64,000 nt of DNA. It comes from Rhodocyclales bacterium. Lineage in GTDB: Bacteria > Pseudomonadota > Gammaproteobacteria > Burkholderiales > Rhodocyclaceae. Made by a program: the position numbers and the translations under genes. This document shows positions 15,252 through 63,048 of this stretch, piece by piece; position 1 is the first letter of the stretch, and each line of letters begins with the position of its first letter. Below the pieces are notes generated by a model. It was not told the DNA's origin and ran no database searches. It worked only from the letters and a program-made list of their open reading frames with translations. Where the stretch lies: the NCBI GenBank assembly GCA_016235165.1, contig JACRLX010000046.1, positions 62,001 through 126,000 of the forward strand, given 5' to 3'.

Positions 15252-15640
15252 CAGGTCTTGGTCTCGATCGCAGGACGCGACGCGCCGTCGTCGCCCGTCA
15301 TCGCACCACCCGATACCGGCCCGGAAGTCGGCGCCGGCGCCACGGCGATATCGGCAACCGGCTCAACAACCGTATCCACCGACTTTTCGATCTCGCGCAT
15401 TTCATGGGTTACCGACGACTCCAGGCTGCTTACCTGGGTGCTCACCTGCTGCTGGAGCTTCTTGAGTTCATCCAGCTGAATCTCGCGATTGATATCCGCC
15501 TTGACGTCGCTTACATAACGTTGCAGGCGCCCGAGCAGAAGGCCCGCGGTACGTGCCACCTTGGGCAGACGCTCGGGGCCGATGACCACCAGCGCCACCA
15601 CGGCAATCACCATCAGCTCGGACAGACCGACGTCAAACAT
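15251..15640 (-). CDS. tatB: Sec-independent translocase protein TatB
   Basis: 129 residues. The N-terminal helix [20 protein letters not shown], the hinge [13 protein letters not shown] and an amphipathic helix are typical of TatB. The C-terminal 40 residues are Pro/Ala/Gly-rich. Forms the receptor complex with TatC. A 74-base gap separates it from tatA. Confidence 0.94.
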
Positions 15641-19924: not shown

Positions 19925-20983
19925 ATGAGCCGCTTCTGGAGCAATGTCGTCAAGGGCCTCACGCCCTACGTGCCGGGCGAGCAACCCAAGCTCGCCAACC
20001 TGATCAAGCTGAACACCAACGAGAACCCCTACGGACCCTCGCCGCGCGCGCTGGAGGCCATCCGTGCGGCAGCGGACGAATCGCTCAAGCTCTATCCCGA
20101 TCCCAACGCCGATGTTTTGAAACGGGCGATTGCCCAACTGCACGGCCTGACGCCACAGCAGGTATTCGTCGGCAATGGCTCGGATGAAGTGCTCGCCCAT
20201 GTCTTCCTGGGTTTGCTCAAGCACGAGCGCCCGGTGCTCTTCCCGGACATCAGCTACAGCTTTTATCCGGTGTATTGCGGCCTCTACCGAATCGCTTATG
20301 AAACCGTCGCGCTGGGTGAGGACTTCTCGATCCTGGCGACAGACTACACCAGGCCCAACGGCGGCATCATCTTCCCCAATCCCAATGCCCCCACCGGGCG
20401 GCTTCTGGCACTGGACGAGATAGTCGAAATACTGCGCGCCAATCCCGACTCGGTGGTGGTGATCGATGAAGCCTATGTGGACTTTGGCGGGGAGAGCGCC
20501 ATTCCGCTGATTGCCGACCACCCCAACCTGCTGGTGGTGCATACCTTTTCCAAATCGCGCTCGCTGGCGGGACTGCGCGTCGGTTTCGCGATCGGGCAGC
20601 CGGACTTGATCGAAGCGCTGGAACGCGTCAAGAACAGTTTCAATTCCTACCCGCTGGACCGTCTGGCGATTGCCGGCGCCGTGGCCGCGATCGAGGACCG
20701 TGGGCATTTCGAAACCACACGCCGCGCGGTAATCGCCACCCGCGAAAAATTGGTTGCCGATTTAACCGCGCTCGGCTTCGAGGTCATTCCCTCGGCCGCC
20801 AATTTCGTCTTCGCGCGCCATCCCCGGCACGACGCGCAAAAGTCGGCGCTGGCACTACGCCAACGCAGCATCATCGTGCGCCATTTCAGGGCGCCGCGCA
20901 TCGACCAGTTCCTGCGCATCACGGTCGGCACCGATGCGCAGTGCGCGGCACTGATTGCCGCACTGAGGGAAATTCTCCGCTGA
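19925..20983 (+). CDS. hisC: Histidinol-phosphate aminotransferase, inverted relative to the his cluster
   Basis: 352 residues from the ATG at 19925. Fold-type I PLP enzyme: [18 protein letters not shown] at the N-terminus, [26 protein letters not shown], and the PLP lysine in [19 protein letters not shown]. Transfers the amino group to imidazole-acetol phosphate. It lies between hisB and hisD but on the opposite strand, convergent with hisD (14-base gap) and divergent from hisB, so it cannot share their transcript. Confidence 0.95.
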
Positions 20984-20997
20984 GCCTGCCGGCTCGG

Positions 20998-22293
20998 TCA
21001 GGAATCGCAGCGCAGTTCCGCGGCGCGGGCATGCGCCGTCAGACCCTCGCCGTGCGCCAGGGTCGATGCGATCGGGCCCAGCGTCCTCGCACCCGCGGCC
21101 GAGACTTCGATCAGGCTGGAGCGCTTCTGGAAATCGTAGACGCCGAGCGGCGAGGAAAAGCGCGCGCTGCGCGAGGTCGGCAGGACATGGTTGGGACCGG
21201 CGCAGTAGTCGCCGAGCGACTCCGAAGCATGGTGGCCGATGAAAATGGCTCCGGCGTGGCGAATCTTTTCCACCAGCGGCGCGGGGTCGGAAACCGACAG
21301 TTCCAGGTGCTCGGGGGCGATGCGATTGGCGATCTCGCAGGCTTCGTCGAGGCTCGCCACCTGTATCAGCGCCCCGCGTCCGGCAAGCGACGCGGCGATC
21401 ACTTCACGGCGCGGCATGGTCGGCAGCAGGCGCTCGATGCTGGCATACACCCTGGCGATGAAATCGGCGTCGGGACAAAGCAGGATGGCCTGCGCCAGCT
21501 CGTCGTGCTCCGCCTGGGCGAACAAATCGATCGCCACCCAGTCGGGATTCGCCGTGCGATCGGCGATGATCAGCACCTCGGAAGGGCCGGCCACCATGTC
21601 GATGCCAACGGTGCCAAAAACGCGGCGCTTGGCGGCGGCGACGTAGGCATTGCCGGGGCCGACGATCTTGTCCACCTGCGGCACGGTCTGGGTGCCGTAG
21701 GCCAGCGCGGCCACGGCCTGGGCGCCGCCGATGGTGAATACCCGATCCACTCCGGAGAGGCAGGCGGCCGCCAATACCAGCGCATTCTTTTCGCCGCGGG
21801 GAGTGGGCACCACCATCACCAGTTCGCCGACCCCGGCCACTTTGGCCGGCAGCGCATTCATCAGCACCGAACTCGGATAGGCCGCCTTGCCACCAGGCAC
21901 ATAGAGCCCAACACGGTCGAGCGGCGTGACCTTTTGCCCCAGGCGCGTGCCGTCGGCCTCGGTAAAGCTCCAGGACTCCATTTTCTGTCGCTCGTGGTAA
22001 CTGCTGACGCGCTCCGCCGCCGCTTCGAGCGCCTTGCGCTGCACCGGCGGCAGGCGGTCGAGCGCATGCCTAAGTTCCGCGCGCGGCAACTCCAGCTCGG
22101 ACATGCTGCCCGGTTCCAGCTTGTCAAAGCGACGCGTGTAATCGAGCACCGCCGGATCGCCCTCGCGACGCACGCGCGCCAGGATTTCGGCGACGGTATT
22201 CTCGATCGCCTCGTCGGTCGAATTGTCGAAGTGCAGCAAGGCATCGAGTGTCGCGGCAAACCCGGAGTCGGCGCTGGACAGACGGCGTATCAT
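20998..22293 (-). CDS. hisD: Histidinol dehydrogenase
   Basis: 431 residues from the ATG at 22293. Recognised by [33 protein letters not shown] and [15 protein letters not shown], then the zinc/catalytic His segments AEHDELAQA and [19 protein letters not shown]. Catalyses the last two NAD-dependent steps. Overlaps the hisG stop by four bases. Confidence 0.96.
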
Positions 22294-22935: not shown

Positions 22936-24487
<1,552 letters not shown>

Positions 24488-31713: not shown

Positions 31714-33285
31714 ATGTACCTGGAACACTTCGGACTCAACGAACCGCCCTTCCGCATCACGCCCCACACCGACTTTTTCTTCGATGGCGCCAATCGCGGC
31801 GCCACCCTGGATGCCCTGATCTATGCCATCACCCATGATGAAGGCATCGTCAAGGTCAGCGGCGAGGTAGGCAGCGGCAAGACCATGCTCTGCCGGGTCT
31901 TGATGGAACGGCTGCCGGATACGGTCACCATCGTGTATCTGGCCAATCCGTCCCTGTCGCGCGACGACATACTCTACGCAATCGCCGACGAGCTTCGGCT
32001 CGACATCCCCGAGAACTCGCGCACGTCGATGGTGATGAGGGCATTGCAGGATAGCCTGATCCAGTCCTACGGCGAAGGACGCCAGGTCGTGGTCCTGATC
32101 GACGAAGCGCACGCCATGCCGGCCGAGACGCTGGAAGAAATTCGCCTGCTCTCCAACCTTGAATCCAATCGCAGCAAATTGCTGCAGCTGGTCCTCTTCG
32201 GCCAGCCTGAGCTCAACGACATACTTGCCCGGCCCGACATGCGCCAGCTCAAGGAACGCATCACCCACAACTTCGGCCTGGAACCCTTGGTCCGGGACGA
32301 CATCGCCAACTACCTGGATTTCCGCATGCGCGCGGCCGGTTACCGCGGACCCAGCGTATTTTCGTTGCCGGCGCTGAAGCTGATCGCGCAAAGCTCCCTG
32401 GGATTGACACGTCGCATCAACATCATCGCCGACAAGTCGCTGCTGGCGGCTTTCTCGGATGGCAGCCATCAGATCGGGGCAAAGGAAGCGCAGGCGGCAA
32501 TCAAGGATTGCGAATTCAGCGACGCAACCTACCGTGGCAAGGGTAGCAACAAAAAGCGTCTGCTCTGGCTGGCGGTGGCGATACTCGCCGCGATCTTGCT
32601 GACCCTTTTCGCCGCGGGACTGCCTCAGCACGAAAACCCGCCCTTGCCCCTCCCACCCTCCATTCCCGCAGCCGGCGAAAAACCTTTGGCGACCCTACCC
32701 ACGCCAGCGCCGCTCCCGGCACAAAGCGCGGTCGAGCCATCAACCGGTTCGACACCGGCGGCGCCGGCGGGGACTTCCCCACCTTCCAGCAATCCGCTTG
32801 CGCGAGGAGCCCCGGCGCCGGCAGCTCCCGCACCGTCTGTCGCCGTGTCGCCAGCGCCGACTTCCGCAGCCCCGGCAGCGCCGGCGACATCCGATGCCGA
32901 AAAATCACAGCCTGCCAATGTCGGCGCCCCGAGTACGGACGCTCGGCCCTACCCCAGGAAAGCAGGCCGCCTGACCCGCGAACGTATCGAGTCCAGTCGA
33001 GCCTGGCTGGAACAATTGCCCAATGACCGCTGGTTCATCCAGATCTTCGCCGCGGATGCCGAGCGCCATGGTGAAGTCGAATCCTTGCTGCGTCGGCTTG
33101 CGGCAGGAGGCGAGGACTCCGAACAGTTACGTGTGTATTACTCCGAACTCAGCGGTCGGCCGCGTTACGGAGTAATCTACGGCGACTATCCCAGTCGGGA
33201 GAAAGCTGCCACCGCGATACGCAGCCTGTCGGCGCAGTTGCGCGCCAACAAGCCCTACCCGCGACCCGCAGTAAGGTTACGTTAG
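31714..33285 (+). CDS. ExeA/MshM-like AAA ATPase with C-terminal SPOR-like domain
   Basis: 523 residues. N-terminal MYLEHFGLNEPPFRITPHTD is the typical opening of ExeA/GspA and MshM proteins. Walker A VSGEVGSGKTMLCR and Walker B VVVLIDEAHAM follow. A membrane helix spans about 281-300 (RLLWLAVAILAAILLTLFAA). A Pro/Ala-rich periplasmic linker leads to a C-terminal ~80-residue SPOR-like domain (DRWFIQIFAADAE, RYGVIYGDYPSREKA) that may bind denuded peptidoglycan. Such proteins help insert the secretin through the cell wall. The linker carries the 23-bp core repeat at 32841. Confidence 0.85.
   Translation: MYLEHFGLNEPPFRITPHTDFFFDGANRGATLDALIYAITHDEGIVKVSGEVGSGKTMLCRVLMERLPDTVTIVYLANPSLSRDDILYAIADELRLDIPENSRTSMVMRALQDSLIQSYGEGRQVVVLIDEAHAMPAETLEEIRLLSNLESNRSKLLQLVLFGQPELNDILARPDMRQLKERITHNFGLEPLVRDDIANYLDFRMRAAGYRGPSVFSLPALKLIAQSSLGLTRRINIIADKSLLAAFSDGSHQIGAKEAQAAIKDCEFSDATYRGKGSNKKRLLWLAVAILAAILLTLFAAGLPQHENPPLPLPPSIPAAGEKPLATLPTPAPLPAQSAVEPSTGSTPAAPAGTSPPSSNPLARGAPAPAAPAPSVAVSPAPTSAAPAAPATSDAEKSQPANVGAPSTDARPYPRKAGRLTRERIESSRAWLEQLPNDRWFIQIFAADAERHGEVESLLRRLAAGGEDSEQLRVYYSELSGRPRYGVIYGDYPSREKAATAIRSLSAQLRANKPYPRPAVRLR
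32841..32863 (+). repeat. Dispersed GC-rich core repeat (23-bp copy)
   Basis: Contains GTCGCCAGCGCCGAC and is identical over 23 bases to the reverse complement of intergenic 46271-46293. Read in frame as AVSPAPTS within the linker of the ExeA-like protein. Confidence 0.6.
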
Positions 33286-35276: not shown

Positions 35277-36706
35277 GTCTCCTGATGGACGCTCTGAAGA
35301 AGGCCGAACTGGCGAAGCGCCAGGGAGGCGGCGATGCCTCGGGCGCGGGCGTTGATGACAATGATGCAACCGGACTGACGCTTGCACCCTTGCCTGATGC
35401 CGAATTTCCGCGGGCCTCTGGCGACGAAGCGGCATCGCATTCCGGGTCTTCGCTTTCCCTAGCCACCCATCTCGAAGAACTCGATGCGCAATTTCTGGAA
35501 GAAGCCGCCGCCGCCGCGCGCCAGATTCCACCGTCCTCGATCGCGGCAGAGCGAACCGAGCCACCTTCACCTCCACCCCCGGCGCCACCTCCGGCACCGC
35601 CTGCCGTCGCCGTCGATCCGCTGCCTCGCACCGAAAGCCCCATCGAAGCGCCGTTGCGACGTGTCCAGCCTGATCCGGACGCGGAAGCCCAGGTCAAGGC
35701 CGCCGCGCAGAATTTGTTTGCCGCCAAACAACCCGAAAAGCAGGAGAGCCGCAAGGGCTTCGCAATTGCCATCGGGGTGCTGACCGTGCTATCCGTCGCC
35801 GGCATCGGCGGCTATTTCTGGTGGCAGCTCCAGCCCAAGGGAGCGATGGTCGCCAAACCGGCTGTCCCACCCGCGCCCTTGCCAGCCGCGCCCAGCATCG
35901 CCGCCGTGTCGCCAGCGCCGACTCCCACGGCTCAGGCAGCGACTACGCCGGCGCTTGGCGCCGCCGCAACCATGGCCGCCAGCGGAACCAAGCCGGCGGC
36001 ACTTTCCAAGGCAGGAGACGACGATAGCGACGACGACGCAGCCGCGAAGAGCGCGCGACCACCTCCCCGCACGCGTCGCGCCGCCCCCCGCGTCGAACCG
36101 GAAGACGACAGTCCGGTTCGCGTCACGCGCGAGCCCTTGCGGGTCGACCCGGCCATCAATCGCGGCTTCGAGGCATTCAACCGGGGTGAGCTGACCATGG
36201 CCCAGCTCGAGTACGAGCGCGCCCGCAAGACCGACCCCCGCAATCCGGACGTATTGCATGGCCTGGCCGCGATCGCCCTGCGCCAGGGCCGGTTCGATCA
36301 GGCGGAGGCGTATTACCGCCAGGTACTGGAATCCGACCCGCAGGATTCCGTGGCCCTCGCCGCGCTGCTCAATCAGCGCGGCCAGATGGACCCGGGGGCC
36401 ACGGAAAGCCGATTGAAATCGCTTGCCGCAACGCAGCCCGACCTGGCCGCCCCGCATTTTTCGCTGGGCAACCTGTATGCGCGACAGGCACGCTGGGCCG
36501 ATGCACAGCAAGCCTATTTCCGCGCCTACAGCGCCGAACCGGACAACCCCGACATCCTTTACAACCTGGCCATCAGTCTTGAGCATTTGCGTCAAAACAA
36601 GCTTGCCGCACAGTATTACGCGCAGGCGATCGCCGCCGCAGCCAGTCACCCAGCCGGGTTCGACAAGGCACAGGCCGCGGCCAGACTGAAGTCGCTACAG
36701 CCCTGA
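35273..36706 (+). CDS. TPR protein of the MSHA-like cluster (MshN-like)
   Basis: 477 residues; the ATG overlaps the secretin stop. The N-terminus MSLLMDALKKAELAKRQ is typical of MshN/GspB-type proteins. One membrane helix (about 163-183, IAIGVLTVLSVAGIGGYFWW), then a Pro/Ala-rich linker and acidic DDDSDDD. At least four C-terminal TPRs follow (YRQVLESDPQDSVALAALLN, NLYARQARWADAQQAYFRAY). Probably a periplasmic assembly scaffold. The linker has the core repeat at 35902. Confidence 0.85.
   Translation: MSLLMDALKKAELAKRQGGGDASGAGVDDNDATGLTLAPLPDAEFPRASGDEAASHSGSSLSLATHLEELDAQFLEEAAAAARQIPPSSIAAERTEPPSPPPPAPPPAPPAVAVDPLPRTESPIEAPLRRVQPDPDAEAQVKAAAQNLFAAKQPEKQESRKGFAIAIGVLTVLSVAGIGGYFWWQLQPKGAMVAKPAVPPAPLPAAPSIAAVSPAPTPTAQAATTPALGAAATMAASGTKPAALSKAGDDDSDDDAAAKSARPPPRTRRAAPRVEPEDDSPVRVTREPLRVDPAINRGFEAFNRGELTMAQLEYERARKTDPRNPDVLHGLAAIALRQGRFDQAEAYYRQVLESDPQDSVALAALLNQRGQMDPGATESRLKSLAATQPDLAAPHFSLGNLYARQARWADAQQAYFRAYSAEPDNPDILYNLAISLEHLRQNKLAAQYYAQAIAAAASHPAGFDKAQAAARLKSLQP
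35902..35923 (+). repeat. Dispersed GC-rich core repeat (22-bp copy)
   Basis: Same 22 bases as 32841-32862, including GTCGCCAGCGCCGAC at 35908-35922, and read in the same frame (AVSPAPTP). It lies in the linker of another protein of the same cluster. Confidence 0.55.
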
Positions 36707-46266: not shown

Positions 46267-46270
46267 ACAA

Positions 46271-46293
46271 AAGTCGGCGCTGGCGACACGGCG
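46271..46293 (-). repeat. Dispersed GC-rich core repeat (intergenic copy)
   Basis: Reverse-strand copy, identical over 23 bases to 32841-32863; begins five bases after the prepilin stop. The only copy seen outside coding sequence. Confidence 0.6.
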
Positions 46294-53096: not shown

Positions 53097-53160
53097 AAGA
53101 GTTATGCCTCCGGCGAAGCCGGGGGCGGTATCCCTTGCGGACGGCGCTGGTAGTACGGCG
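53097..53160 (+). repeat. 64-nt in-frame hairpin repeat, copy 1
   Basis: Begins AAGAGTTATGCC, contains the hairpin CCTCCGGC-GAA-GCCGGGGG (53107-53125), and ends GGACGGCGCTGGTAGTACGGCG-like sequence. Identical at 60 of 64 positions to 62361-62424 in trpC. Read in frame here as [20 protein letters not shown] within the biotin carboxylase linker. Confidence 0.85.
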
Positions 53161-53552
53161 ATCGAATGGACAATCAACGCCCACGGCCACTTGCGTTACA
53201 CCCGCGACGGAATCACCCGCCAGGCGGTCATCCACCGCGACGGCGACACGCTCTGCCTCGCTCGCGACGCAGCGGTCTTCGTCTTCCGCGAAGCCTCGCC
53301 GCTGCCTGCCACGGAAAACCGCAACGACCCCGCCATCGCCCGCGCCGGCGTGGCCGGCACCGTCACACGCCTGGAGGTCGGCGCTGGCGACACGGTGATC
53401 GCCGGCCAGACACTGGCCGTGATCGAGGCCATGAAGATGGAAATGCGCGTCACCGCCGGTGCGGCCGGGACCGTGGCCGCCGTGCGCGTGCTGGCCGGCA
53501 CCCAGGTGGAAGCCGGCACGCTACTGATGGAACTCGACATCGAGGAATCCCC

Positions 53553-54425
53553 ATGCCTGCCAACGACAAAGCCATCCTGACCTGCGCCCTGACCGGCGTA
53601 CTGACCGACCCGCAGCAGCACCCGGTGCCGGTGACGCCGGAGCAGATGGCGGCCTCGGCACGCGAAGCGTTTGGGGCCGGCGCCAGCATAATGCACGTGC
53701 ATCTGCGCCGGCAGGAGCCCGGAAAAGGCCACCTGCCCTCCTGGGACCCGGGGGTCGCCGCCGAAATAGTCGATGCCATCCGCGGTGCCTGCCCCGGCGT
53801 CATCATCAACCTCACCACCGGCGTGATCGGCGCCGACATTTCCGGCCCCACCGCCTGCATCCGCCGCGTGAAACCCGAGATCGCCGCCTGCAATGCCGGC
53901 ACGTTGAACTACCTGAAGCTGAAGGACGACGGCCGCTGGGCCTGGCCGCCGATGGTCTTCGACAATCCGGTGGAGAAGGTACAGGCCTTTCTCGACGTAA
54001 TGGACGAAACCGGCACGCGACCCGAATTCGAATGCTTCGACGTCGGCATTGTCCGCTCCGTCGCCATGTACCGCAGGGCTGGAATGACGAGCCACGCCGA
54101 GTACAACTTCGTCATGGGCGTGGCCTCGGGCATGCCCGTCGATGCCGACCTGCTGCAACTGCTGCTGCGCTGGATCGAACCCGGCTCGCCCTGGCAAACC
54201 ACGCTGATCGGCCGCGCCGAAATCTGGCCGCTGCACCAGCGCACAGCCGAACTCGGCGGCATGCTGCGCACGGGCCTCGAAGACACGTTTTACCTGCCGG
54301 ACGGCAAGCGCGCGGGCGGCAATGGCGCGCTGATCGAGGCGCTGGCGGCCTGCGCGCGCATGGCCGGGCGCGAAGTCGCCAGTCCGGCCGAGGCGCGCAC
54401 ATTGCTGGGACTGGCCGAAAGCTGA
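53553..54425 (+). CDS. Beta-keto acid cleavage enzyme family protein (BKACE, DUF849)
   Basis: 290 residues from the ATG at 53553, overlapping the biotin carboxylase gene by 28 bases. Zinc-binding IMHVHLRR near residue 48, INLTTGVIG, and C-terminal TGLEDTFYLPDGKRAGGN are family motifs. BKACE enzymes cleave beta-keto acids with acetyl-CoA, as in 3-keto-5-aminohexanoate cleavage. As the last gene of the operon it could play the part HMG-CoA lyase plays in leucine breakdown, releasing an acetoacetate-type product (inference). Confidence 0.85.
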   Translation: MPANDKAILTCALTGVLTDPQQHPVPVTPEQMAASAREAFGAGASIMHVHLRRQEPGKGHLPSWDPGVAAEIVDAIRGACPGVIINLTTGVIGADISGPTACIRRVKPEIAACNAGTLNYLKLKDDGRWAWPPMVFDNPVEKVQAFLDVMDETGTRPEFECFDVGIVRSVAMYRRAGMTSHAEYNFVMGVASGMPVDADLLQLLLRWIEPGSPWQTTLIGRAEIWPLHQRTAELGGMLRTGLEDTFYLPDGKRAGGNGALIEALAACARMAGREVASPAEARTLLGLAES

Positions 54426-54514
54426 GCAGTGGCCAGCCCGTTGCCCTCGCGAATCCGCGGCTCCTGTGCTTCAATGTTGACGATGACGCGATATTCCAAA
54501 CAGGGAGAAGAATC

Positions 54515-54916
54515 GTGAAAGCAATCGTCTGGAGCAAGATACTCAGCGTCGGATTCGAGGAAATCGACGAGGACCATCGCAAGCTGGTCGGCATCTTCAA
54601 TGAACTCAACCATGCGGTAACGGCCGGCGATGCCACCGACTACCTCGAGGCCACACTGGAAGAGCTGATCAACTGCACGGTCTGGCACTTCAGTCACGAG
54701 GAGAGGCTGATGCTCAAGCACCGCTATGACGGCATCGATGAGCACAAGGCGCAACACCGCGAACTCATCGAGAGCGCCAGGGACTTGCAACAGCAGTTGC
54801 TTCAAGCGGGGCAGGACGTGGCCGAGGAGCAGATCATCTACCTTGAGCGCTGGCTGACCGGACACATCCTCACCACCGACCAGCGGCTGGGGATGTATCT
54901 TTCACAGGTCGTCTAA
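54515..54916 (+). CDS. Bacteriohemerythrin
   Basis: 133 residues from a GTG at 54515 with GGGAGAAG upstream. Di-iron ligands are visible in order: IDEDHRKLVGIFNEL, HFSHEERLM, HKAQHREL and the terminal WLTGHILTTDQR. Binds O2 reversibly and may store or sense oxygen. Stands alone, 89 bases after the BKACE gene. Confidence 0.93.
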   Translation: MKAIVWSKILSVGFEEIDEDHRKLVGIFNELNHAVTAGDATDYLEATLEELINCTVWHFSHEERLMLKHRYDGIDEHKAQHRELIESARDLQQQLLQAGQDVAEEQIIYLERWLTGHILTTDQRLGMYLSQVV

Positions 54917-55047
54917 GTCCGGCAATTTGCCTGCCCGTGGCGGTGGTCAAGACATTGACCCCAAACAGGGGGCGAAATCGAAATCGGGGTTGCCGGTACG
55001 CGCGAAGTCCGATTGGCTGCGCGTGGGGCCCCCGTTGTTCTCGAACC

Positions 55048-55395
55048 ATGAATTCCGCCGCCGACATCGACGCCGCAACCGCCAACGCCACTCGTGCCTT
55101 CATCGAGCAGGTGGCGAGCAGATACGACTATGCGGGTACCATCCTGTTCGGCAGCCGGGCGCGCAAATCGCATCATCCGGAGAGCGATGCCGACGTCGCG
55201 GTTTTACTGCACGGGCGCCCGGGGAAATTCGTCGCTACCAAACTGGACATGGCCGACCTTGCCTACGACGTGCTCCTGGAGACCGGCATCCACATCCAGC
55301 CGCTGCCGATCTGGAACGAGGAATGGAAGCACCCCGAAACCTATTCCAATCCACGCCTGCTGCATAACATCGAGCGCGAAGGAATACGGCTTTGA
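55048..55395 (+). CDS. MNT-type nucleotidyltransferase (HEPN/MNT pair antitoxin-like)
   Basis: 115 residues from the ATG at 55048. Minimal nucleotidyltransferase signature TILFGSRARKSHHPESDADV with the GS and D-x-D residues. In HEPN/MNT modules this protein neutralises the HEPN RNase, in characterised cases by AMPylation. Its stop overlaps the start of the broken HEPN gene, the normal spacing for the pair. Confidence 0.85.
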   Translation: MNSAADIDAATANATRAFIEQVASRYDYAGTILFGSRARKSHHPESDADVAVLLHGRPGKFVATKLDMADLAYDVLLETGIHIQPLPIWNEEWKHPETYSNPRLLHNIEREGIRL

Positions 55396-55653
55396 AGGCG
55401 ACCGACCTGATGGCAATGGCGATCAAGGCGGGCGCGTCGGCCGCTATTGCTAGACGCGGGGGATCTGGATGGGGCCTGCAATCGAGCCTACTATTCAATG
55501 TTCGATGCGGCCCGTGTGGCCTTGCTGGCTTCCGGCGCGCCGGTCGAAGCCGAAATCGCGAGAACGCATGGCGGCCTGATCGCCGCGTTCAGCCTTCATC
55601 TGGTCAGGAGTCGGCGCGGACAGGACGGCGATCCCTCCGCATACAGGCGCTAG
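55392..55653 (+). pseudogene. Broken HEPN-domain gene
   Basis: Starts at a TTG overlapping the MNT stop (MKATDLMAMAIKAG). Around 55425-55440 the frame shifts by one; the HEPN core then reads LDAGDLDGACNRAYYSMFDA and RTHGGLIAAFSLHLV in the other frame before a premature end near 55653. The HEPN catalytic R-x4-6-H region expected further on is missing. Without it the MNT protein has no intact partner here. Confidence 0.7.
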
Positions 55654-55688
55654 ACCTCAGCAAATAGTGATTCTGACAATTCGGCGAA

Positions 55689-56363
55689 TCACTTCCCTGC
55701 AAACAGGTACTCCTCGCCTGTCAGCGAGGCAATGTGGAGCATGACAGTGTCAGTGGCCTGTCGGAGTATCTCTTCATCCAGATCCCTGTCATCTACTTTT
55801 TCGAATCGCAGCGGCTCACCAATGTGAATGCTTGCCTTGCAAAGCTTTGGCCGTTTGTCACGCACCGACATTATTTCCCACGTCCCACGCATTCCGACGG
55901 GCACCACCGGCAACCCGGATTTGATCGCCAAAAGGGCAACGCCCTTTTTTGCTTTCATCAGTCTGCCATCCGGTGAGCGTGTTCCTTCCGGGAAGATACC
56001 GATTAGGCGGCCCTGTTTTACCGCCCTGGCAATCTCCCTGTAAGCCCTCACATTTGCATCGCTGTAGCGGTCAACGCGAATGCACCCCATGAACGCCATA
56101 AACCACTTCCAGATTGGATGGACAAAGAATTTTTCCGCCGCCAGGTAGTGAATTTTTCGATCAACCACTGCAATGAACAAAATGAAGTCAAAGTAGCTCT
56201 CGTGGTTCGAGGCCACCAAACACGGGCCTTGCGCGGGAAGATTCTCCAGGCCATGAACATCCGCAATCCAGAGCTTCCGCACCACGGGAGAAAATAGCTT
56301 AAAAAATAGCTTAATGAACGGATATCCAAACCGTGTCATCAAGGATTCATTCATATCTTTCAA
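55689..56363 (-). CDS. 1-acyl-glycerol-3-phosphate acyltransferase (PlsC-like)
   Basis: 224 residues. Acyltransferase motifs NHESYFDF (His-x4-Asp) near residue 53 and IFPEGTRSPDG near residue 122. Membrane-associated. Overlaps the HAD gene upstream by four bases; HAD-IB and PlsC domains are often paired or fused. Base composition is visibly poorer in G+C than the flanks, suggesting a separate origin. Confidence 0.88.
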   Translation of the reverse strand: MKDMNESLMTRFGYPFIKLFFKLFSPVVRKLWIADVHGLENLPAQGPCLVASNHESYFDFILFIAVVDRKIHYLAAEKFFVHPIWKWFMAFMGCIRVDRYSDANVRAYREIARAVKQGRLIGIFPEGTRSPDGRLMKAKKGVALLAIKSGLPVVPVGMRGTWEIMSVRDKRPKLCKASIHIGEPLRFEKVDDRDLDEEILRQATDTVMLHIASLTGEEYLFAGK

Positions 56364-57019
56364 GTTGCCACGATCTCCCAGTTACGGGCAGTTGCAATCG
56401 AATGCAACTTGCGGCAGGGATTAACTGCCACCGGTCGAGCCGCCATCTCTAGCACCGGCAAGTCGGAGATGTGATCGGCGTACGCGCTACTGTCGGAGAG
56501 AGACAAGCCGTTTTTCTCAGCATATTCCCGCACCAGACGCACCTTCGCCTCCCCATATACCATTGCGCCATCGATCTGCCCTGTGCATCGGCCATTCTTG
56601 GTTTCCAGCCGGGTGGAGACATAGCCGTCAAAGCCGAGAAATCTTGCAACCGCACCGGCCAGCGGATCAATCGAGTTGGACACCAACACCATGTTCCGTC
56701 CAGCATTGCGTTCTGCTTCTACCCGCTTGGTAACGGCCAGGCAGAGGTACGGTAGGAGATTGCTCCTAAAGCATTCTTCAGCCTCCTGTTCAAGCCGTGC
56801 CATTGACCAGCCTTCGGCGAATCGATAGGCATATTCCATCGCACGGCGCGGTTCGCTCAGAATGCCGGCCTTGTACAGCCCGAACCAACACAACAGCTTC
56901 CACCTTGTTACATTTCCGATGTAGCGCCGCTCGCTGCAATATTCCAGAAAAATGCGCTGGGTCTGGCAACGCACCAAGGTGCCGTCCAAGTCGAAAATCG
57001 CCAAAGATTGCGTCATCAA
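56360..57019 (-). CDS. HAD-IB family hydrolase (SerB-like phosphatase)
   Basis: 219 residues. IFDLDGTLVRCQTQ at the N-terminus, LVSNSIDPLAGAVARFLGFD (motif II), and YADHISDLPVLEMA (motif IV). Together with the adjacent PlsC-type acyltransferase it may act on a phospholipid intermediate; the pairing is known, the substrate is not. The 177-base gap upstream (57020-57196) shows nothing I can identify. Confidence 0.87.
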   Translation of the reverse strand: MMTQSLAIFDLDGTLVRCQTQRIFLEYCSERRYIGNVTRWKLLCWFGLYKAGILSEPRRAMEYAYRFAEGWSMARLEQEAEECFRSNLLPYLCLAVTKRVEAERNAGRNMVLVSNSIDPLAGAVARFLGFDGYVSTRLETKNGRCTGQIDGAMVYGEAKVRLVREYAEKNGLSLSDSSAYADHISDLPVLEMAARPVAVNPCRKLHSIATARNWEIVAT

Positions 57020-57196
57020 CTACCCCAGGCGCAGCTCATATCGAAGTAGACGCCGTCGACCTCAAATTTGCCGTTAAAGGGAAGGTGTTCGTCATGCGTC
57101 GCCATAGGGCACATTGACCGGTGATGTGCTCGCAAGACTCTCTTTGCGAGTCAATATGGTGTTGTGTTGCGTGATGGACCTGCTGCGGATACAAGG

Positions 57197-57439
57197 TCAC
57201 GAATGTGGCGCATTCTCAGCTCCGGCATGTCGATTAAGCTCGATAGCGGCCAGGAAAGTACTTATCGCGGCCATCGGACCCAAGATCCCACAGAGAAACA
57301 GTAGCGAGCACAGGAGTAGGCCCTGCCAACCTTGAAGGGCGTCTCGCGAATCAAACAACCCGCCTAGCTTGGCGCGCTTCCAAAATGCCCAAAGACCGCA
57401 CGCTAAGTGAAATGCCAAATACATCAACATATCTTCCAT
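57197..57439 (-). CDS. Small hydrophobic protein of unknown function
   Basis: 80 residues, two likely membrane helices (MLMYLAFHLACGLWAFW; GLLLCSLLFLCGILGPMAAI). No family recognised. Tightly follows the tiny ORF at 57442 in a low-GC patch. Could be genuine or a spurious frame. Confidence 0.4.
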   Translation of the reverse strand: MEDMLMYLAFHLACGLWAFWKRAKLGGLFDSRDALQGWQGLLLCSLLFLCGILGPMAAISTFLAAIELNRHAGAENAPHS

Positions 57440-57441
57440 AC

Positions 57442-57558
57442 CTACGCCCTAATTGCGCTCTCACGTCCCGTCCGCCGGTACTTCCTAACAAATAGACGCG
57501 TAAGTCTCGTGCATTCGACTAGAAGGAGCCCTAGCCACAGCTGGATGCCATACAGCAT
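57442..57558 (-). CDS. Possible 38-residue small protein
   Basis: ATG at 57558, stop at 57442; one hydrophobic segment (IQLWLGLLLVE) followed by a strongly basic tail (RKYRRTGRE). Ends two bases before the 80-residue protein starts. Unknown; supported only by spacing and composition. Confidence 0.2.
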   Translation of the reverse strand: MLYGIQLWLGLLLVECTRLTRLFVRKYRRTGRESAIRA

Positions 57559-57602
57559 AACCCGTGTTGGGATATCCCGCAACAGGTTATTGCTGTTCGG
57601 GA

Positions 57603-57845
57603 ATGCCGAATCCCATGCATGCTCCTCGCTACATCTTGTTCCGCGAATTTCTTGTCGAAATGCGCGAACGTGGCGGGCTGACGCAAACTGATGTGGCCAA
57701 TAGGCTGGGAAAGCCGCAGAGCTATGTATCGAAATACGAGCGCGGCGAAAGACGCCTTGATTTTGTCGAATTCATTGACGTCGCCAAAGCGCTTCGCATC
57801 GACACTATCGAATCGCTTCTCTACTTGCTCGAAAAGATCCGATAA
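57603..57845 (+). CDS. XRE-family helix-turn-helix regulator
   Basis: 80 residues from the ATG at 57603 (another ATG at 57615). HTH_3 domain: GGLTQTDVANRLGKPQSYVS and KYERGERRLDFVEFIDVAKA. Single-domain DNA-binding protein of unknown target. Last gene of the low-GC patch, just before gph. Confidence 0.8.
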   Translation: MPNPMHAPRYILFREFLVEMRERGGLTQTDVANRLGKPQSYVSKYERGERRLDFVEFIDVAKALRIDTIESLLYLLEKIR

Positions 57846-57910
57846 AAAGGCAATATCGCCTTATCGAGACCGCTTGCGACTGCATGAGCCGGCCATGCTA
57901 TCGTCGCCCC

Positions 57911-58585
57911 ATGAATACCATCCGCTCCGTCACCGTCGATCTCGACGGCACCCTGCTCGACACCATTCCCGACCTTGCCGCCGCCGCCAATGCCATGCTG
58001 CGCGAACTGGGCCGGCCCGAACTTCCGCTGGACACCATCGCCACCTACGTCGGCCGCGGCATTCCGAAACTGGTGGCGCGCTGCCTGCCCGAGCTCGACG
58101 AGGCCGCGGTGGAAGCCGCCCAGGCCATCTTCCGCCGCCATTACGCGATCGAGAACGGACGCCGCTCGACCGTCTTCCCCGGCGTGCTCGACGGCCTGCA
58201 GGCCATGCGCGATGCCGGCCTGCGCCTGGCCGTGATCACCAACAAGGCGGCGGCCTTCACCGAGCCGCTGCTGGTCGCCAGCGGCCTTGCGCCCTGGTTC
58301 GAATTCGCCGTCTCCGGCGACAGCCTCGCGCACAAGAAACCGCATCCGGCACAGTTGCTGCACGCCTGCCAGCGCATGGGCACCCGGCCCGGCGAAAACC
58401 TGCACATCGGCGACTCGCACCACGACGCCGTCGCGGCGCGCGCCGCCGGCTGCCCGGTGTTCATCGTCCCCTACGGCTACAACGAGGGCATGGACGTGCA
58501 GGGAATCGACTGCGATGCTATAGTCGCGTCGCTGGCCGAGGCCTATCGCCGTGTTGCCAGCGCCGACTTTCGAAAGAGCGCTTGA
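57911..58585 (+). CDS. gph: Phosphoglycolate phosphatase
   Basis: 224 residues from the ATG at 57911. HAD motifs VTVDLDGTLLDTIPDLAAAA, LAVITNKAAAFTEPLL, HKKPHPAQLL and HIGDSHHDAVAARAAG. Clears 2-phosphoglycolate. Normally sits between rpe and trpE; trpE follows directly, but rpe has been separated. Its last codons (VASADF) are part of a core repeat copy. Confidence 0.94.
   Translation: MNTIRSVTVDLDGTLLDTIPDLAAAANAMLRELGRPELPLDTIATYVGRGIPKLVARCLPELDEAAVEAAQAIFRRHYAIENGRRSTVFPGVLDGLQAMRDAGLRLAVITNKAAAFTEPLLVASGLAPWFEFAVSGDSLAHKKPHPAQLLHACQRMGTRPGENLHIGDSHHDAVAARAAGCPVFIVPYGYNEGMDVQGIDCDAIVASLAEAYRRVASADFRKSA
58547..58569 (+). repeat. Dispersed GC-rich core repeat at the gph 3' end
   Basis: 22 of 23 bases match 32841-32863 (one C to T change). 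It lies in the last codons of gph. Confidence 0.5.
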
Positions 58586-58592
58586 ACCCATC

Positions 58593-58670
58593 ATGCTCCA
58601 CCGCAACCTGCAACTGACAAGGAAACACGCCCTCGGGGCGGAGGCCTGGCCCTGGCGGCCCTGGCACTGA
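58593..58670 (+). promoter_or_regulatory. Possible trp leader peptide (trpL-like)
   Basis: A 25-codon frame (ATG 58593, TGA 58668-58670) ends AEAWPWRPWH, with three Trp codons in the last seven residues, 72 bases before trpE. That is the design of a ribosome-mediated trp attenuator. A hairpin GGCGCG-N10-CGCGCC follows at 58687-58708, but without a T-run. The ribosome site is weak, so this is a hypothesis. Confidence 0.35.
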
Positions 58671-58742
58671 TTCTTCCACTTGTCCCGGCGCGAGCCTGAT
58701 CACGCGCCCCGTCGTTGCAGTACCGTTCTTCCGGAGCATCCC

Positions 58743-60166
58743 ATGACTGAAATCGAATTCAACCGCCTGGCGGCGGAGGGCTACAACCGCATCCCGGTGA
58801 CGCTCGAAACCTTTGCCGACCTCGACACGCCGCTGTCGATCTACCTCAAGCTGGCCAACGACCCTTACTCCTACCTGCTCGAATCGGTGCAGGGCGGCGA
58901 GCGCTTCGGCCGCTATTCCTTCATCGGCCTGGCCGCCGGCACACGCATCGCCGTGGTCGATGGCGCGATCATGGTGTTGAGCGGAAACCGCGTCGCCGAA
59001 CGACGCGACCATACCAACCCGATGAGCTTCATCTCGGAATTCATGGCGCGCTTCAAGGTGCCCGACCTGCCCGGCCTGCCGCGCTTCTGCGGCGGCCTGG
59101 TCGGCGTCTTCGGCTACGACACGGTGCGCTTCGTCGAGCCCAAGCTGGCGAAGAACCACAAGCCGGAAGCCGCCGGCATGGAGGGCGTGCCCGACATCCT
59201 GCTGCTGCTCTCCGAAGAGATCGCGATCATCGACAACCTCTCCGGCAAGCTGAGCCTGGTGGTGTATGCCGAGCCGGGCTTTCCCGGTGCCTGGAAGCAG
59301 GCGCAGGCGCGGCTGAAGGAACTGCTCGGCCGCCTGCGCGCGCCGGTGGCGATTCCGGAGGACGTGCGCAGGCCGTCGGCACCGGCGGTATCGGAATTCG
59401 GCGAAGATGAATTCAAGGCCGCCGTGCGCCGCGCCAAGCAGTACATCGTCGATGGCGACATCATGCAGGTGGTGCTCTCGCAGCGCATGAAGAAGCCCTT
59501 CGCCGCCAGCCCGATGGCGCTCTACCGCGCGCTGCGCACGCTGAACCCCTCGCCCTACATGTTCTATTTCAACTTCCAGGATTTCCACGTGGTCGGCGCC
59601 TCGCCCGAGATCCTGGTGCGCCTCGAAGACGCGGGTGAAGAGCGGACCGTCACCGTGCGCCCCATAGCCGGCACGCGCAAGCGCGGCGCCACGCCCGCCG
59701 AAGACGAAGCCCTGGCCGCCGACCTGCTGGCCGACCCGAAGGAGCGCGCCGAACACCTGATGCTGCTCGACCTCGGCCGCAACGACGCCGGCCGCGTGGC
59801 CAAGACCGGCACGGTGCGCGTCACCGACCAGTTCAGCATCGAGCGCTATTCGCACGTGATGCACATCGTCTCCAACGTCGAAGCGACGCTCAAGGACGAC
59901 GAGGGCGCGACCAGCGTGCTCAAGGCCACCTTCCCCGCCGGTACCGTGTCGGGCGCGCCAAAGGTGCGGGCGATGGAAATCATCGACGAACTTGAGCCCA
60001 GCGCACCGCCGTGGTCAAGGACGGCCACATCTTCGTCCAGGCCGGCGCCGGCATCGTCGCCGACTCCGACCCCGACAGCGAATGGCAGGAGACGCTGAAC
60101 AAGGCACGCGCCCAGTTGCGCGCCGCCGAGATGGCCGAGTCCGGCCTCGATACGAGGCTGGAATAG
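58743..60166 (+). pseudogene. trpE: Anthranilate synthase component I, internally deleted and frameshifted
   Basis: Starts MTEIEFNRLAAEGYNRIPVT and is normal through [11 protein letters not shown] (about residue 420). Conserved TrpE segments [42 protein letters not shown] and FPAGTVSGAPKVRAM are intact. The next expected block (about 25 residues including the GAVGY-type chorismate-binding motif) is absent. The sequence jumps out of frame to what should read [20 protein letters not shown]. In frame the protein ends at 60098; the displaced correct frame runs to a TAG at 60166. The product should be inactive. Could be a real deletion or an assembly fault. Confidence 0.85.
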
Positions 60167-60568
60167 ATGAACACCATTCACCACAGAGACACAGAGACAC
60201 GGAGAGATGCCCTTACAGAAGAAATCATTGGGGCGGCCATTGAAGTCCATCGAACCCTTGGCCCTGGCCTGCTCGAATCGGCATATGAGGAGTGCCTGTG
60301 TGTCGAACTAGGCTTGCGCAGCGTGCAGTTCAAGAGCCAGGTGGAATTGCCCTTGGTCTACAAAGATCGCCGCCTGGACGCGGGTTATCGCCTCGACCTG
60401 ATCGTCAATGACGAAGTCGTTGTCGAATTGAAGTCAGTCGACCAACTCTCCAACCTCCACCAAGCTCAGCTTCTCACGTATATGCGCTTGGGTGGATATC
60501 GAACTGGTTTACTCCTGAACTTCAACGTACCAGTGCTCAGAGATGGGATACGGAGAATGAAACTATGA
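60167..60568 (+). CDS. GxxExxY protein (PD-(D/E)xK nuclease fold)
   Basis: 133 residues from an ATG directly after the displaced trpE stop. The family string [17 protein letters not shown] supplies GxxExxY, and [10 protein letters not shown] is the ExK of a PDDEXK_3 fold. Residues 4-15 ([11 protein letters not shown]) are translated from the left inverted repeat, a feature I recall for many members of this family. Function unknown. Its two-sided inverted repeats mark it as a mobile or cassette-like unit placed between trpE and trpG. Confidence 0.88.
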
Positions 60569-60612
60569 ATTCTCTTTGGCTTTTCTCTGTGACTCTGTGT
60601 CTCTGTGGTGAA
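60177..60612. mobile_element. 436-bp unit with 31-bp terminal inverted repeats around the GxxExxY gene
   Basis: Left end 60177-60207 and right end 60582-60612 are inverted repeats, identical at 28 of 31 positions with the outer 20 perfect (TTCACCACAGAGACACAGAG). No transposase is inside and no clear target duplication is visible, so it would be non-autonomous or move by another route. The trpG ribosome site (AAAGG) lies at its right edge. Confidence 0.75.
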
Positions 60613-60623
60613 AGGTTTTCATC

Positions 60624-61196
60624 ATGCTGCTGATGATCGACAACTACGACAGCTTCACCTACAACCTGGTGCAGTACTTCGGCGAACTCGGCGAGGACGT
60701 GCGCGTGTATCGCAACGACGCGATCACGCTGAAGGAAATCGCCGCCATGCAGCCGGAGCGCATCGTCATTTCGCCCGGGCCCTGCTCGCCGGCCGAAGCC
60801 GGCATCTCGGTGGCGGCGATCCGCGAGTTCGCCGGCAAGGTCCCGCTGCTCGGCGTCTGCCTCGGCCACCAGAGCATAGGCGCGGCCTTCGGCGGCGACA
60901 TCGTCCATGCCAAGACCTTGATGCATGGCAAGACCTCGCCGGTGCATCACGAGGGCAAGGGCGTCTTTGCCGGCCTGCCCAATCCGCTGACCGTGGTGCG
61001 CTACCACTCGCTGGCGATCCGCCGCGAGACCCTGCCCGCCTGCCTCGAAGTCACGGCCTGGACCGAGGACGGCGAAATCATGGGCGTGCGCCACAGGGAA
61101 TACGCGCTGGAAGGCGTGCAGTTCCATCCCGAATCGATCGCCACCGAAGCCGGCCACGAATTGCTACGGAATTTCCTGAAAGGAAGCCAATCATGA
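60624..61196 (+). CDS. trpG: Anthranilate synthase component II (glutamine amidotransferase)
   Basis: 190 residues. [19 protein letters not shown], the catalytic Cys in [10 protein letters not shown], and His-Glu in [11 protein letters not shown]. May also serve p-aminobenzoate synthase. It overlaps trpD by four bases but is separated from trpE by the GxxExxY unit. Confidence 0.96.
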
Positions 61197-62218
61197 TCAC
61201 TCCCCAGGAAGCGCTCCAGCGCACCATCGAACACCGCGAAATCTTCCACGACGAAATGCTGCACCTGATGCGGCAGATCATGAAAGGCGAGATCTCGCCG
61301 CTGATGGTCGCGGCGATACTGACTGGCCTGCGCGTGAAGAAGGAAACCATCGGCGAAATCTCTGCCGCCGCGACGGTGATGCGCGAGCTGTCGACCAAGG
61401 TCGACACGCCGCACAACCCGCACTTCGTCGACATCGTCGGCACCGGCGGCGACGGCGCGCACACCTTCAACATTTCCACCACCACCATGTTCGTCGCCGC
61501 GGCGGCGGGTGCCACGGTGGCCAAGCACGGCAACCGCAGCGTGTCGTCGAAGTCCGGCGCCGCCGACGTGCTGGAAGCGCTGGGCGCCAACATCATGCTG
61601 ACACCGGCCCAGGTCGGCGAATGCATCGAGGCCATCGGTTGCGGCTTCATGTTCGCGCCCAACCACCACCCGGCGATGAAGAACGTCGCCCCGGTGCGGC
61701 GCGAAATGGGCGTGCGCACCATCTTCAACATCCTGGGGCCCCTGACCAACCCCGCCGGCGCGCCGAACACGCTGATGGGCGTGTTCCACCCCGATCTGGT
61801 CGGCATCCAGGTGCGCGTCATGCAGCAGCTTGGCGCCGACCACGTCATGGTGGTCTGGGGCAAGGACGGCATGGACGAAATTTCGCTGGGCGCCGCCACC
61901 CTGGTCGGCGAACTCAAGGACGGCAAGATCACCGAGTACGAGATCCATCCCGAGGACTATGGACTGTCCATGGTCTCCAATCGCGGCCTGCGCGTCGCCG
62001 ACGCGGCGGAATCGAAGGCCATGATGTTCGAAGCGCTGGAGAACAAGCCCGGCACGCCGCGCGAGATCGTCACCCTCAATGCCGGTGCGGCGCTGTATAC
62101 CGCGAACCTGGCAGACTCGATAGCCGACGGCATCGTCAAGGCGCGCGAAGCCATCGCCAGCGGCGCGGCGCGCAAGAAGCTCGACGACTTTGTCGGCTTC
62201 AGCAAGAAGTTCGGCTGA
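61193..62218 (+). CDS. trpD: Anthranilate phosphoribosyltransferase
   Basis: 341 residues from the ATG at 61193. PRPP-binding [34 protein letters not shown] and [12 protein letters not shown] are diagnostic. Second step of tryptophan synthesis. Overlaps trpG and trpC. Confidence 0.96.
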
Positions 62219-63048
62219 TGGCGGCGGATATCCTCGAAAGAATCCTCGCGGTAAAGCGCGAGGAAGTCGCTGCCGGGAAAGCCGTGAAATCGCTCGCGGC
62301 CGTTCGTGCCGAGGCCGAGGCACAGGCGCCGGCAAGAAGCTTTGCTGGAGCGATACGGTCAAGAGTTATGCCCCGTGCGAAGCAGGGGGCGGTATCCCTT
62401 GCGGACGGCGCTGGTAGTACGGCGGTCATCGCCGAAATCAAGAAGGCCAGTCCATCCAAGGGCGTCATCCGCGCCGACTTCCGCCCGGCCGAAATCGCCG
62501 CCGATTACGAGAAGTACGGCGCCGCATGTCTTTCCGTGCTGACCGACCGTCAGTTCTTCCAGGGCTCTCCGGAGTACCTGCAGCAAGCGCGCACCGCTTG
62601 CGCGCTGCCGGTGCTGCGCAAGGACTTCCTGGTCGATCCCTGGCAGGTCTATGAAGCGCGCGCCATGGGCGCCGACGCCATCCTGCTGATCGTCGATGCA
62701 CTCTCGCTGGCACAGATGCAGGAGATGGAAGCCATCGCCTTTGCTCTCGGCATGTCGGTGCTGGTCGAATGCCACGACGCGGCAGAACTCGACATCGCGC
62801 TGCAACTCAAGACACCGCTGGTCGGCATCAACAACCGCAACCTGCGGAGCTTCGAGGTCGATCTCGACACCACTTTGGCGCAGCTCGGCCGCATCCCGGC
62901 CGACCGCATCGTGGTCACCGAATCGGGCATCCTCGCCCCGGCCGACGTGGCCTTGATGAACTCGCACGGCGTGCATGCCTTCCTCGTCGGCGAAGCCTTC
63001 ATGCGCGCGCCCTCGCCCGGCGAAGAGCTGGCGCGCTTGTTTGCCTGA
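62218..63048 (+). CDS. trpC: Indole-3-glycerol phosphate synthase with in-frame repeat peptide
   Basis: 276 residues; start overlaps the trpD stop. Catalytic barrel motifs [61 protein letters not shown] and VTESGI are intact. Between FAGAIRS and AVIAEIKK, residues 49-69, the protein carries [20 protein letters not shown], encoded by the 64-nt repeat at 62361. Other TrpC proteins have a much shorter loop here. Being in the loop just before strand 1, it may be tolerated. Confidence 0.95.
62361..62424 (+). repeat. 64-nt in-frame hairpin repeat, copy 2
   Basis: 60 of 64 bases match 53097-53160. The hairpin here is CCCCGTGC-GAA-GCAGGGGG; relative to copy 1, one pair changes from G-C to T-A on both arms. 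Same reading frame as copy 1. Confidence 0.85.

Follow-up and report, generated by a model that had tools for sequence, protein, structure and literature searches.

Hairpin cassettes nested in a dispersed 24-bp motif in the genome of a Rhodocyclales bacterium

The window analyzed here, 64,000 nucleotides of contig JACRLX010000046.1 (positions 62,001 to 126,000) from the Rhodocyclales bacterium assembly GCA_016235165.1, carries two similar 64-bp repeats in genes encoding a biotin carboxylase and TrpC. Each repeat is a 24-bp motif, RAAGTCGGCGCYGGnnnnACGGCG, in which a 39-bp hairpin cassette separates AGT from CGGCG. The genome holds hundreds of copies of this sequence-specific motif, on both strands, within and between genes. 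As judged from orthologous sequences, the motif in genes arises in place, nearly always with no change in length, where the protein tolerates the encoded peptide or already resembles it. A possible explanation, which we put forward tentatively, is that the motif is a sequence-specific DNA signal kept because motif-bearing DNA is favored, with an uptake signal as the best precedent, and that the cassettes are passengers.

The two repeats and the motif within them

The two repeats differ at 4 of 64 bases, which agrees with the 60/64 identity reported in the initial annotation of this DNA; the shared reading frame and the two hosts were also identified correctly. Their parts are as follows.

53097..53160 (+): motif split by the 39-bp cassette and translated in frame, within the BT-domain region of the biotin carboxylase (AAGAGT 53097-53102, cassette 53103-53141, CGGCGCTGGTAGTACGGCG 53142-53160)
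62361..62424 (+): motif with the 39-bp cassette, in frame in trpC (AAGAGT 62361-62366, cassette 62367-62405, CGGCGCTGGTAGTACGGCG 62406-62424)

The carboxylase has a BT domain of the methylcrotonyl-CoA-carboxylase-alpha type, and a similar gene of a relative (locus L059) has the repeat at what appears, by eye and unaligned, to be the equivalent place. In the window, a 20-mer of the repeat (up to 3 mismatches) matched solely at the two repeats, and 100 shuffles yielded no match. Further copies exist elsewhere in the genome, a 4.47-Mb assembly of 57 contigs (hereafter G000; G, C and L numbers are our labels for genomes, contigs and loci). Among the 43 matches listed for a 70-mer query against this genome, 19 were at E ≤ 3e-4, the place of the query included, and a covariance model of the long form yielded 40 matches at E ≤ 1e-3, at least the last three of which were bare motifs. 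An exact 21-mer of the repeat was found in 64 stretches of named genomes, all of them Sulfuritalea, Rhodocyclaceae, Rhodocyclales, or uncultured beta proteobacterium. The Rfam scan of the window produced no match, and in literature searches by title and abstract we found no such motif described in this group. The proposal of a repeat family lying in frame in unrelated genes, with no description in this group in the literature searched, is borne out, with many more genomic copies and a hairpin that covaries.

The bare motif is far more abundant than the 64-bp form, as the cassette is present in a minority of copies. The pattern AGTCGGCGCYGGnnnnACGGCG with at most one mismatch occurs 657 times in G000 (323 forward, 334 reverse), at a density of about one per 7 kb, while the reversed pattern occurs once. 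In the window and contig C17 (464 kb), copies with 0, 1, 2, and 3 mismatches numbered 39, 30, 19, and 12, respectively, against 0, 0, 0, and 9 for the reversed control. In samples of two species, G000 and G002, the motif was the top over-represented 12-mer family.

At the same threshold of one mismatch, the motif is present in all 31 genomes of the genus, with 33 (G016) to 686 (G022) copies, and 30 genomes of other genera contain 0 to 4. Exact copies were also counted in 300 genomes drawn from the order, where the own genome had 393, G284 had 59, and the remaining 298 had 0 to 4, and in 121 genomes of the family, where four of the own genus had 178 to 421 and 111 others had 0 to 8. The other-genus genomes rich in exact copies, G336 (171), G363 (354), G284 (59), G421 (207), G386 (101), and G432 (146), belong to four further genera of the family (g142, g169, g36, and g192). 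In some motif-poor genera, copies are clustered at G403:C1:1461265-1502264, G379:C104, and G349:C1:564284-584605, as if residing on DNA imported from motif-rich relatives.

Within the genus, G016 is nearly motif-free: a 687-kb sample contained no exact copy and six with one mismatch. The TrpC tree did not resolve between loss of the motif in G016 and early branching. An alternative dialect of the motif was looked for in G016, G032, and G034, and no dispersed 10- or 12-mer stood out in a comparable way; the top k-mers that were studied, those of G016, resemble local repeats. The status of this genome could point to the gene behind the motif.

Placement and origin of the bare motif

To characterize placement, we used the window, C17, and a sample of G002 (864 kb in total), in which copies with at most one mismatch numbered 133; genes were called with a simple home-made caller rather than taken from curated annotation. 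Of these copies, 85 were internal to called genes, 35 intergenic, and 13 at gene edges. When assigned by midpoint, 37 of 133 were intergenic, although intergenic DNA makes up 7.1% of the sequence; 12 of the 37 were flanked by convergent genes, and 13 were at most 10 bp away from a stop codon. Internal copies are found in the sense (40) and antisense (45) orientations at similar counts, which makes the motif a feature of DNA rather than RNA. Their frames are strongly uneven (sense 35/0/5, antisense 12/29/4; P = 2e-12 and 2e-5 against equal thirds); the P values treat all copies as independent, an assumption that does not hold for orthologous sites shared by G000 and G002. These counts come from the above samples and not from loci fetched by motif, which are biased. 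The favored frames encode KVGAGxTA in sense and AVxPAPT in antisense. In two genomes of other genera, G432 and G363, 22 copies around chosen places comprised 10 internal, 10 intergenic, and two edge copies, with the same favored frames in 4 of 5 sense and 3 of 5 antisense copies.

The bare motif contains a potential stem, and we considered a hairpin there and rejected it for lack of covariation. Among 183 instances the pair C8-G19 became C-C 17 times and never G-C. With no compensation seen, it is the sequence of the motif that is kept, not a structure.

The history of the motif can be followed in TrpC. A TrpC match was obtained in 24 of the 31 genomes of the genus, the remaining seven giving none, and in 29 of 30 from outside it; all 24 and six of the 29 were read. 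Two of the 24 (G000 and G028) have the 39-bp cassette, which adds 13 amino acids, 13 have none (one of these, L293, is one residue shorter), four have additions at the tail, and five have other cassettes, namely, a 36-bp spacer cassette in three, the same with a 21-bp left cassette in one, and a 21-bp left cassette alone in one. The proteins of the six outgroup genera (L298, L300-L304) are equal in length to those of genus members having the motif only. Hence, the motif formed in place and only the 39-bp cassette lengthens TrpC; the 64-mer as one inserted element is ruled out by these lengths. A peptide conserved in TrpC of all relatives, which would have spoken against a mobile repeat, is not found for the cassette, while the flanking motif is there in most of the genus. 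By a count made by eye, the alanine codon GCT is present at 20 of 24 genus loci and at none of the six outgroup loci.

In a broader test of length, motif-bearing proteins encoded by G000, by G002, and by further loci of the genus were set against samples of G016, G032, and G034 and against the TrpC outgroups. The 93 comparisons were reduced to 69 with good flanks, to 25 rows after removal of duplicates, and to 20 distinct sites, at five of which the orthologue carries the motif or a decayed copy. The net length was unchanged at 18 of 20 sites; the motif carrier was shorter by eight residues at one site and by two at another, and a gain of eight residues was seen at none. Motif-less orthologues (at least 4 mismatches) were available at 15 sites, and the absence of length change at 14 of them indicates that the bare motif, like DNA uptake sequences, developed in situ. 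Orthologues had on average 5.4 mismatches to the motif (18 hand-entered values), compared with 8.55 ± 1.25 in random windows; by hand, the means were 5.3 for all 20 sites and 6.3 for the 15 motif-less ones. The sites were therefore near-matches beforehand, by chance or owing to the protein sequence.

The comparison of G000 and G002 also indicates that many motif sites are common to different species. Eight G000 sites could be located in the G002 sample, where six carry the motif with no more than 2 mismatches; of 16 G002 sites located in G000 loci, 10 carry it, often with different spacer bases. These fractions are biased upwards, as most G000 loci were fetched by motif.

One region of C17 (G000:C17:265025-326348) is a motif-free, one-strand cluster of 61 kb with genes for glycosyltransferases, NeuB, DegT aminotransferases, and a capsule protein. 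Among its 57 called genes, eight of the ten proteins scanned fit surface-polysaccharide synthesis or export, and the cluster has probably been imported.

Hairpin cassettes and further copies in the window

Several kinds of short hairpin cassettes occur within motif copies, at two positions, the AGT/CGGCG junction and the nnnn spacer. The 39-bp kind, placed at the junction, has the consensus TATGYCTCCGGCnnnGCCGGRGRCGGTATCCCTTGCGGA. The initial annotation had suggested that the hairpin of the two repeats is selected. The hairpin is present in both, and its exchanged pair, G-C against T-A (columns 16/25 of the repeat alignment), is real; two copies alone do not demonstrate selection, since next to this pair the TrpC copy has a G.G mismatch. 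In a larger set the hairpin does covary: in 35 distinct 39-bp cassettes, 94.6% of hairpin cells are paired and 19 show double changes, compared with 88.9% paired and 4.2 ± 1.6 double changes (largest 10) in 1000 shuffles. Structure is thus kept in the cassette, and sequence in the motif.

The usual cassette lengths are 39, 24, 36, 27, or 21 bp. We filtered the counts by sequence, as some raw pattern matches were due to chance. Left cassettes in genes are 24, 27, 39, or 42 bp long (26 of 26 are multiples of three), and those between genes are 24, 38, 39, or 40 bp long (33 of 35); a 21-bp left cassette was seen in TrpC and MurA. In genes, all seven spacer cassettes are multiples of three, at 27 or 36 bp; between genes they measure 36 bp, once 52 bp. 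The usual length is thus intrinsic to the cassette, and lengths that are not multiples of three are solely intergenic.

Versions of one motif with and without a cassette were found in TrpC, KsgA, and MurA. MurA is the third occupied gene of the window, and its orthologue in G002 is 16 amino acids shorter. The cassettes in TrpC of G000 and G028 are near-identical and oddly mismatched, and the two genomes are not neighbors in the weakly resolved TrpC tree; this suggests that the cassette was transferred by recombination or, alternatively, that it was inserted long ago and has since been lost elsewhere.

Among the model matches examined in the own genome, 29 of 36 had both motif halves by pattern. 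Of the seven missed by pattern, L099 and L111 do possess both halves, the start being a variant one, and L130 is a tandem array lacking the motif. At E ≤ 1e-3 the cassette model matched in all 31 genus genomes and in two of 30 others, with one match each. Of the nine motif-bearing genomes of other genera, G421 and G284 had 23 matches each, G386 had three, G432 two, and G336 and G349 one each; G363, G379, and G346 had none. The lack of cassette-model matches in G363, with its 354 exact motifs, shows that the motif can occur on its own. Tandem repeats of the cassette unit, with no surrounding motif, are found at L130 (G000:C5:177767-177918) and L145 (G000:C5:49289-49385), and these arrays are perhaps its source form.

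The further copies in the window are listed below. Except for TrpC, MurA, KsgA, and those matched in Pfam, gene names (e.g., ArgJ) are presumptive.

2721..2744 (-): exact bare motif, sense frame 0, in an ankyrin-repeat gene
4594..4617 (+): trypsin/PDZ gene, bare motif with 1 mismatch near its called start
15324..15347 (+): exact bare motif, antisense in a TatA/B-family gene; also exact in the G002 orthologue
20839..20862 (+): within a class I/II aminotransferase gene, 2 mismatches to the motif; no more than 1 in G002, and no motif in G016
22264..22287 (+): exact bare motif, antisense at the called start of a gene
23971..24048 (-): motif with two cassettes, about 21 bp left and 27 bp in the spacer, in murA (gene 22936-24252)
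32841..32864 (-): exact bare motif, antisense in an AAA/SPOR-domain gene
35902..35925 (-): exact bare motif, antisense in a TPR gene
46270..46293 (+): exact bare motif, intergenic
53374-53397: 2 mismatches to the motif, in the biotinyl domain of the carboxylase with the first repeat, reading EVGAGDTVIAGQTL; at most 1 mismatch in the G002 orthologue; may be a native peptide turned motif
55607..55630 (+): intergenic, 2 mismatches to the motif; perhaps a chance match or a decayed copy
58547..58570 (-): exact bare motif at the 3' end of a called gene

Possible nature of the motif

The motif resembles the DNA uptake sequences (DUS) of Neisseriaceae and the uptake signal sequences (USS) of Pasteurellaceae in its hundreds of copies on both strands, in and between genes and under frame constraints, as well as in having formed in place and in being genus-wide and patchy beyond. 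Its lying in tolerant parts of genes, its enrichment downstream of genes, and its absence from the 61-kb surface-polysaccharide cluster also fit this kind of signal. Unlike them, it is 24 bp long and bipartite, with a free 4-bp spacer, is sparser, belongs to another order, and hosts hairpin cassettes. Uptake sequences of Neisseriaceae have been described as lying inside genes, within permissive core regions, and as occurring in pairs at terminators (PMC3630211); unlike the DUS, close inverted pairs of the present motif at terminators are rare.

On this precedent, a protein would read the motif as DNA, and copies would be maintained since DNA carrying them is favored: competent cells would preferentially take up motif-bearing DNA, and motif alleles would spread by transformation. 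The cassettes would be secondary passengers using the motif as a landing site, the two starting repeats being occupied landing sites, and lengths divisible by three would have prevailed because most landing sites lie in genes. Taken together, this would be a two-layer system, not described before, in which a 24-bp uptake- or recombination-like mark of several genera hosts a guild of hairpin cassettes that land mostly inside it and are translated in frame (TrpC, MurA, and KsgA); we consider such a system plausible, if somewhat short of probable. ComEC, the sole competence gene looked for, is present in 30 of 31 genus genomes, even in motif-poor G016, which is compatible with uptake but neither discriminates nor proves it.

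Several observations weigh against an uptake signal, and one of them is this very presence of ComEC in a genome where the motif is nearly gone. Known uptake sequences are about 9-12 bp long and several times denser, and the motif has 18 fixed positions. Only two close inverted pairs (under 150 bp) were present among the 133 copies in 864 kb. Even spacing is weak, with P = 0.056 in G002; in C17, P = 0.019 depended on cutting the contig post hoc at the 61-kb gap, and without the cut the copies are clustered. Finally, the motif is associated with genes for REP-associated tyrosine transposases (RAYT; REP, repetitive extragenic palindromic). In the genus, 15 RAYT loci were readable (a 16th gave no open reading frame), some of which are near copies of each other and hence not independent. 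The motif (at most 1 mismatch) lies within 200 bp at 11 of the 15 (L253, L255-L258, L260, L261, L264, L266, L267, and L269), compared with 103 of 761 control called genes (13.5%), and 10 of 12 RAYT-adjacent copies are in the orientation of the gene. The association is genuine, stems in part from related loci, and finds no explanation in uptake.

The RAYT loci bear directly on an alternative of templated overwriting, possibly by a single-strand enzyme of the RAYT type, in which the motif, as a selfish patch, anneals at partial matches and replaces them in one step. Such a process would account for the unchanged length with up to eight or nine differing positions amid conserved flanks, for the pre-existing similarity of sites to the motif, and for the presence of the motif, largely in a single orientation, next to 11 of 15 RAYT genes. 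However, we know of no such mechanism. Moreover, a search for RAYT genes found none in G000, G001, G007, G011, G016, and G018, and all of these except G016 hold 290 to 657 copies (G001 and G011 being only 83-86% complete). A different, GGGGxCAG-like sequence marks the upstream end of the RAYT gene in 14 of the 15 loci, with the same caveat on independence. In the own genome, a single Y1 transposase was found, an IS200-like gene of 153 amino acids at a contig edge, L031 (G000:C2:87-443), with a GC-rich hairpin downstream and no motif in the adjoining stretch read, so that RAYT or IS200 was rejected as the driver in this genome. Overwriting is, in our view, unlikely. Compared with REP and REPIN elements of the GTAG and CGTC families, the motif is similarly short and high-copy, with intergenic copies near stop codons, and its place beside many RAYT genes may be a further parallel; unlike them, it has no GTAG/CGTC tag, is mostly intragenic and length-neutral, is abundant where no RAYT was found, and differs from the sequence at the RAYT gene end.

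The motif could instead be the binding site, maintained by selection, of an abundant chromosome-associated protein acting in the nucleoid, segregation, recombination, or replication, similar to Chi, matS, or Noc sites, with cassettes being incidental. It is sequence-specific, orientation-independent, shared between species at many sites, perhaps evenly spaced, and tolerated in genes, as would suit such a site, but its copy number varies about 20-fold within the genus, its occurrence is patchy between genera, and G016 has nearly none, unlike what is seen for a core function. Eighteen fixed positions are also long for sites of the Chi, matS, or Noc type. We regard this option as rather unlikely; together with overwriting, it is one of the two main rivals of the uptake reading. 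HIP1 of cyanobacteria (GCGATCGC, an 8-bp perfect palindrome with thousands of copies) is likewise over-represented and formed in place within genes; unlike HIP1, the motif is 24 bp long, asymmetric, and of different sequence. For some over-represented cyanobacterial palindromes that also accumulate in place, an origin without functional selection has been proposed, through bias in mutation or mismatch repair near a methylated site (PMC4390886), but 18 fixed positions over 22 bp and an asymmetric left arm exceed the product of a methyltransferase site, and such a by-product seems very unlikely here.

It is hardly credible that the 64-mers are mobile palindromic elements, of the Rickettsia or REP type, inserted whole and kept in frame. 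They are in frame, form a hairpin, and have many copies, but bare motifs are length-neutral, most copies are cassette-free, and the motif exists without the cassette. The resemblance to Rickettsia palindromic elements noted in the initial annotation holds at most for the 39-bp cassette, in-frame hairpin DNA that lengthens the open reading frame of unrelated proteins; for the whole 64-mer it fails on the TrpC lengths. The cassette, at 39 bp, is shorter than those elements and, unlike them, lies mostly within a pre-existing motif, in a free-living member of Rhodocyclales. Nor is Rickettsia the only precedent: REPs inside open reading frames are reported for several bacteria, including Thauera as well as the Rickettsia elements, though as insertions (PMC3733652). 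The beta-proteobacterial repeat element (BRE) also comes from Betaproteobacteria and has some copies in coding sequence, but is described as about 90 bp long with at most 29 copies (PMC3110155); we set it apart by this description, not by sequence.

The analysis illustrates that apparent gene-inserted repeats can be sequence written in place. Should the motif be a true uptake signal, it would have no precedent in Rhodocyclales in the literature searched and would be unusually long, and the origin and upkeep of such signals would become testable across a genus whose members carry 33 to 686 copies. The nested cassettes, in turn, would provide a natural experiment on how selfish DNA survives in important genes, by preserving length and frame.

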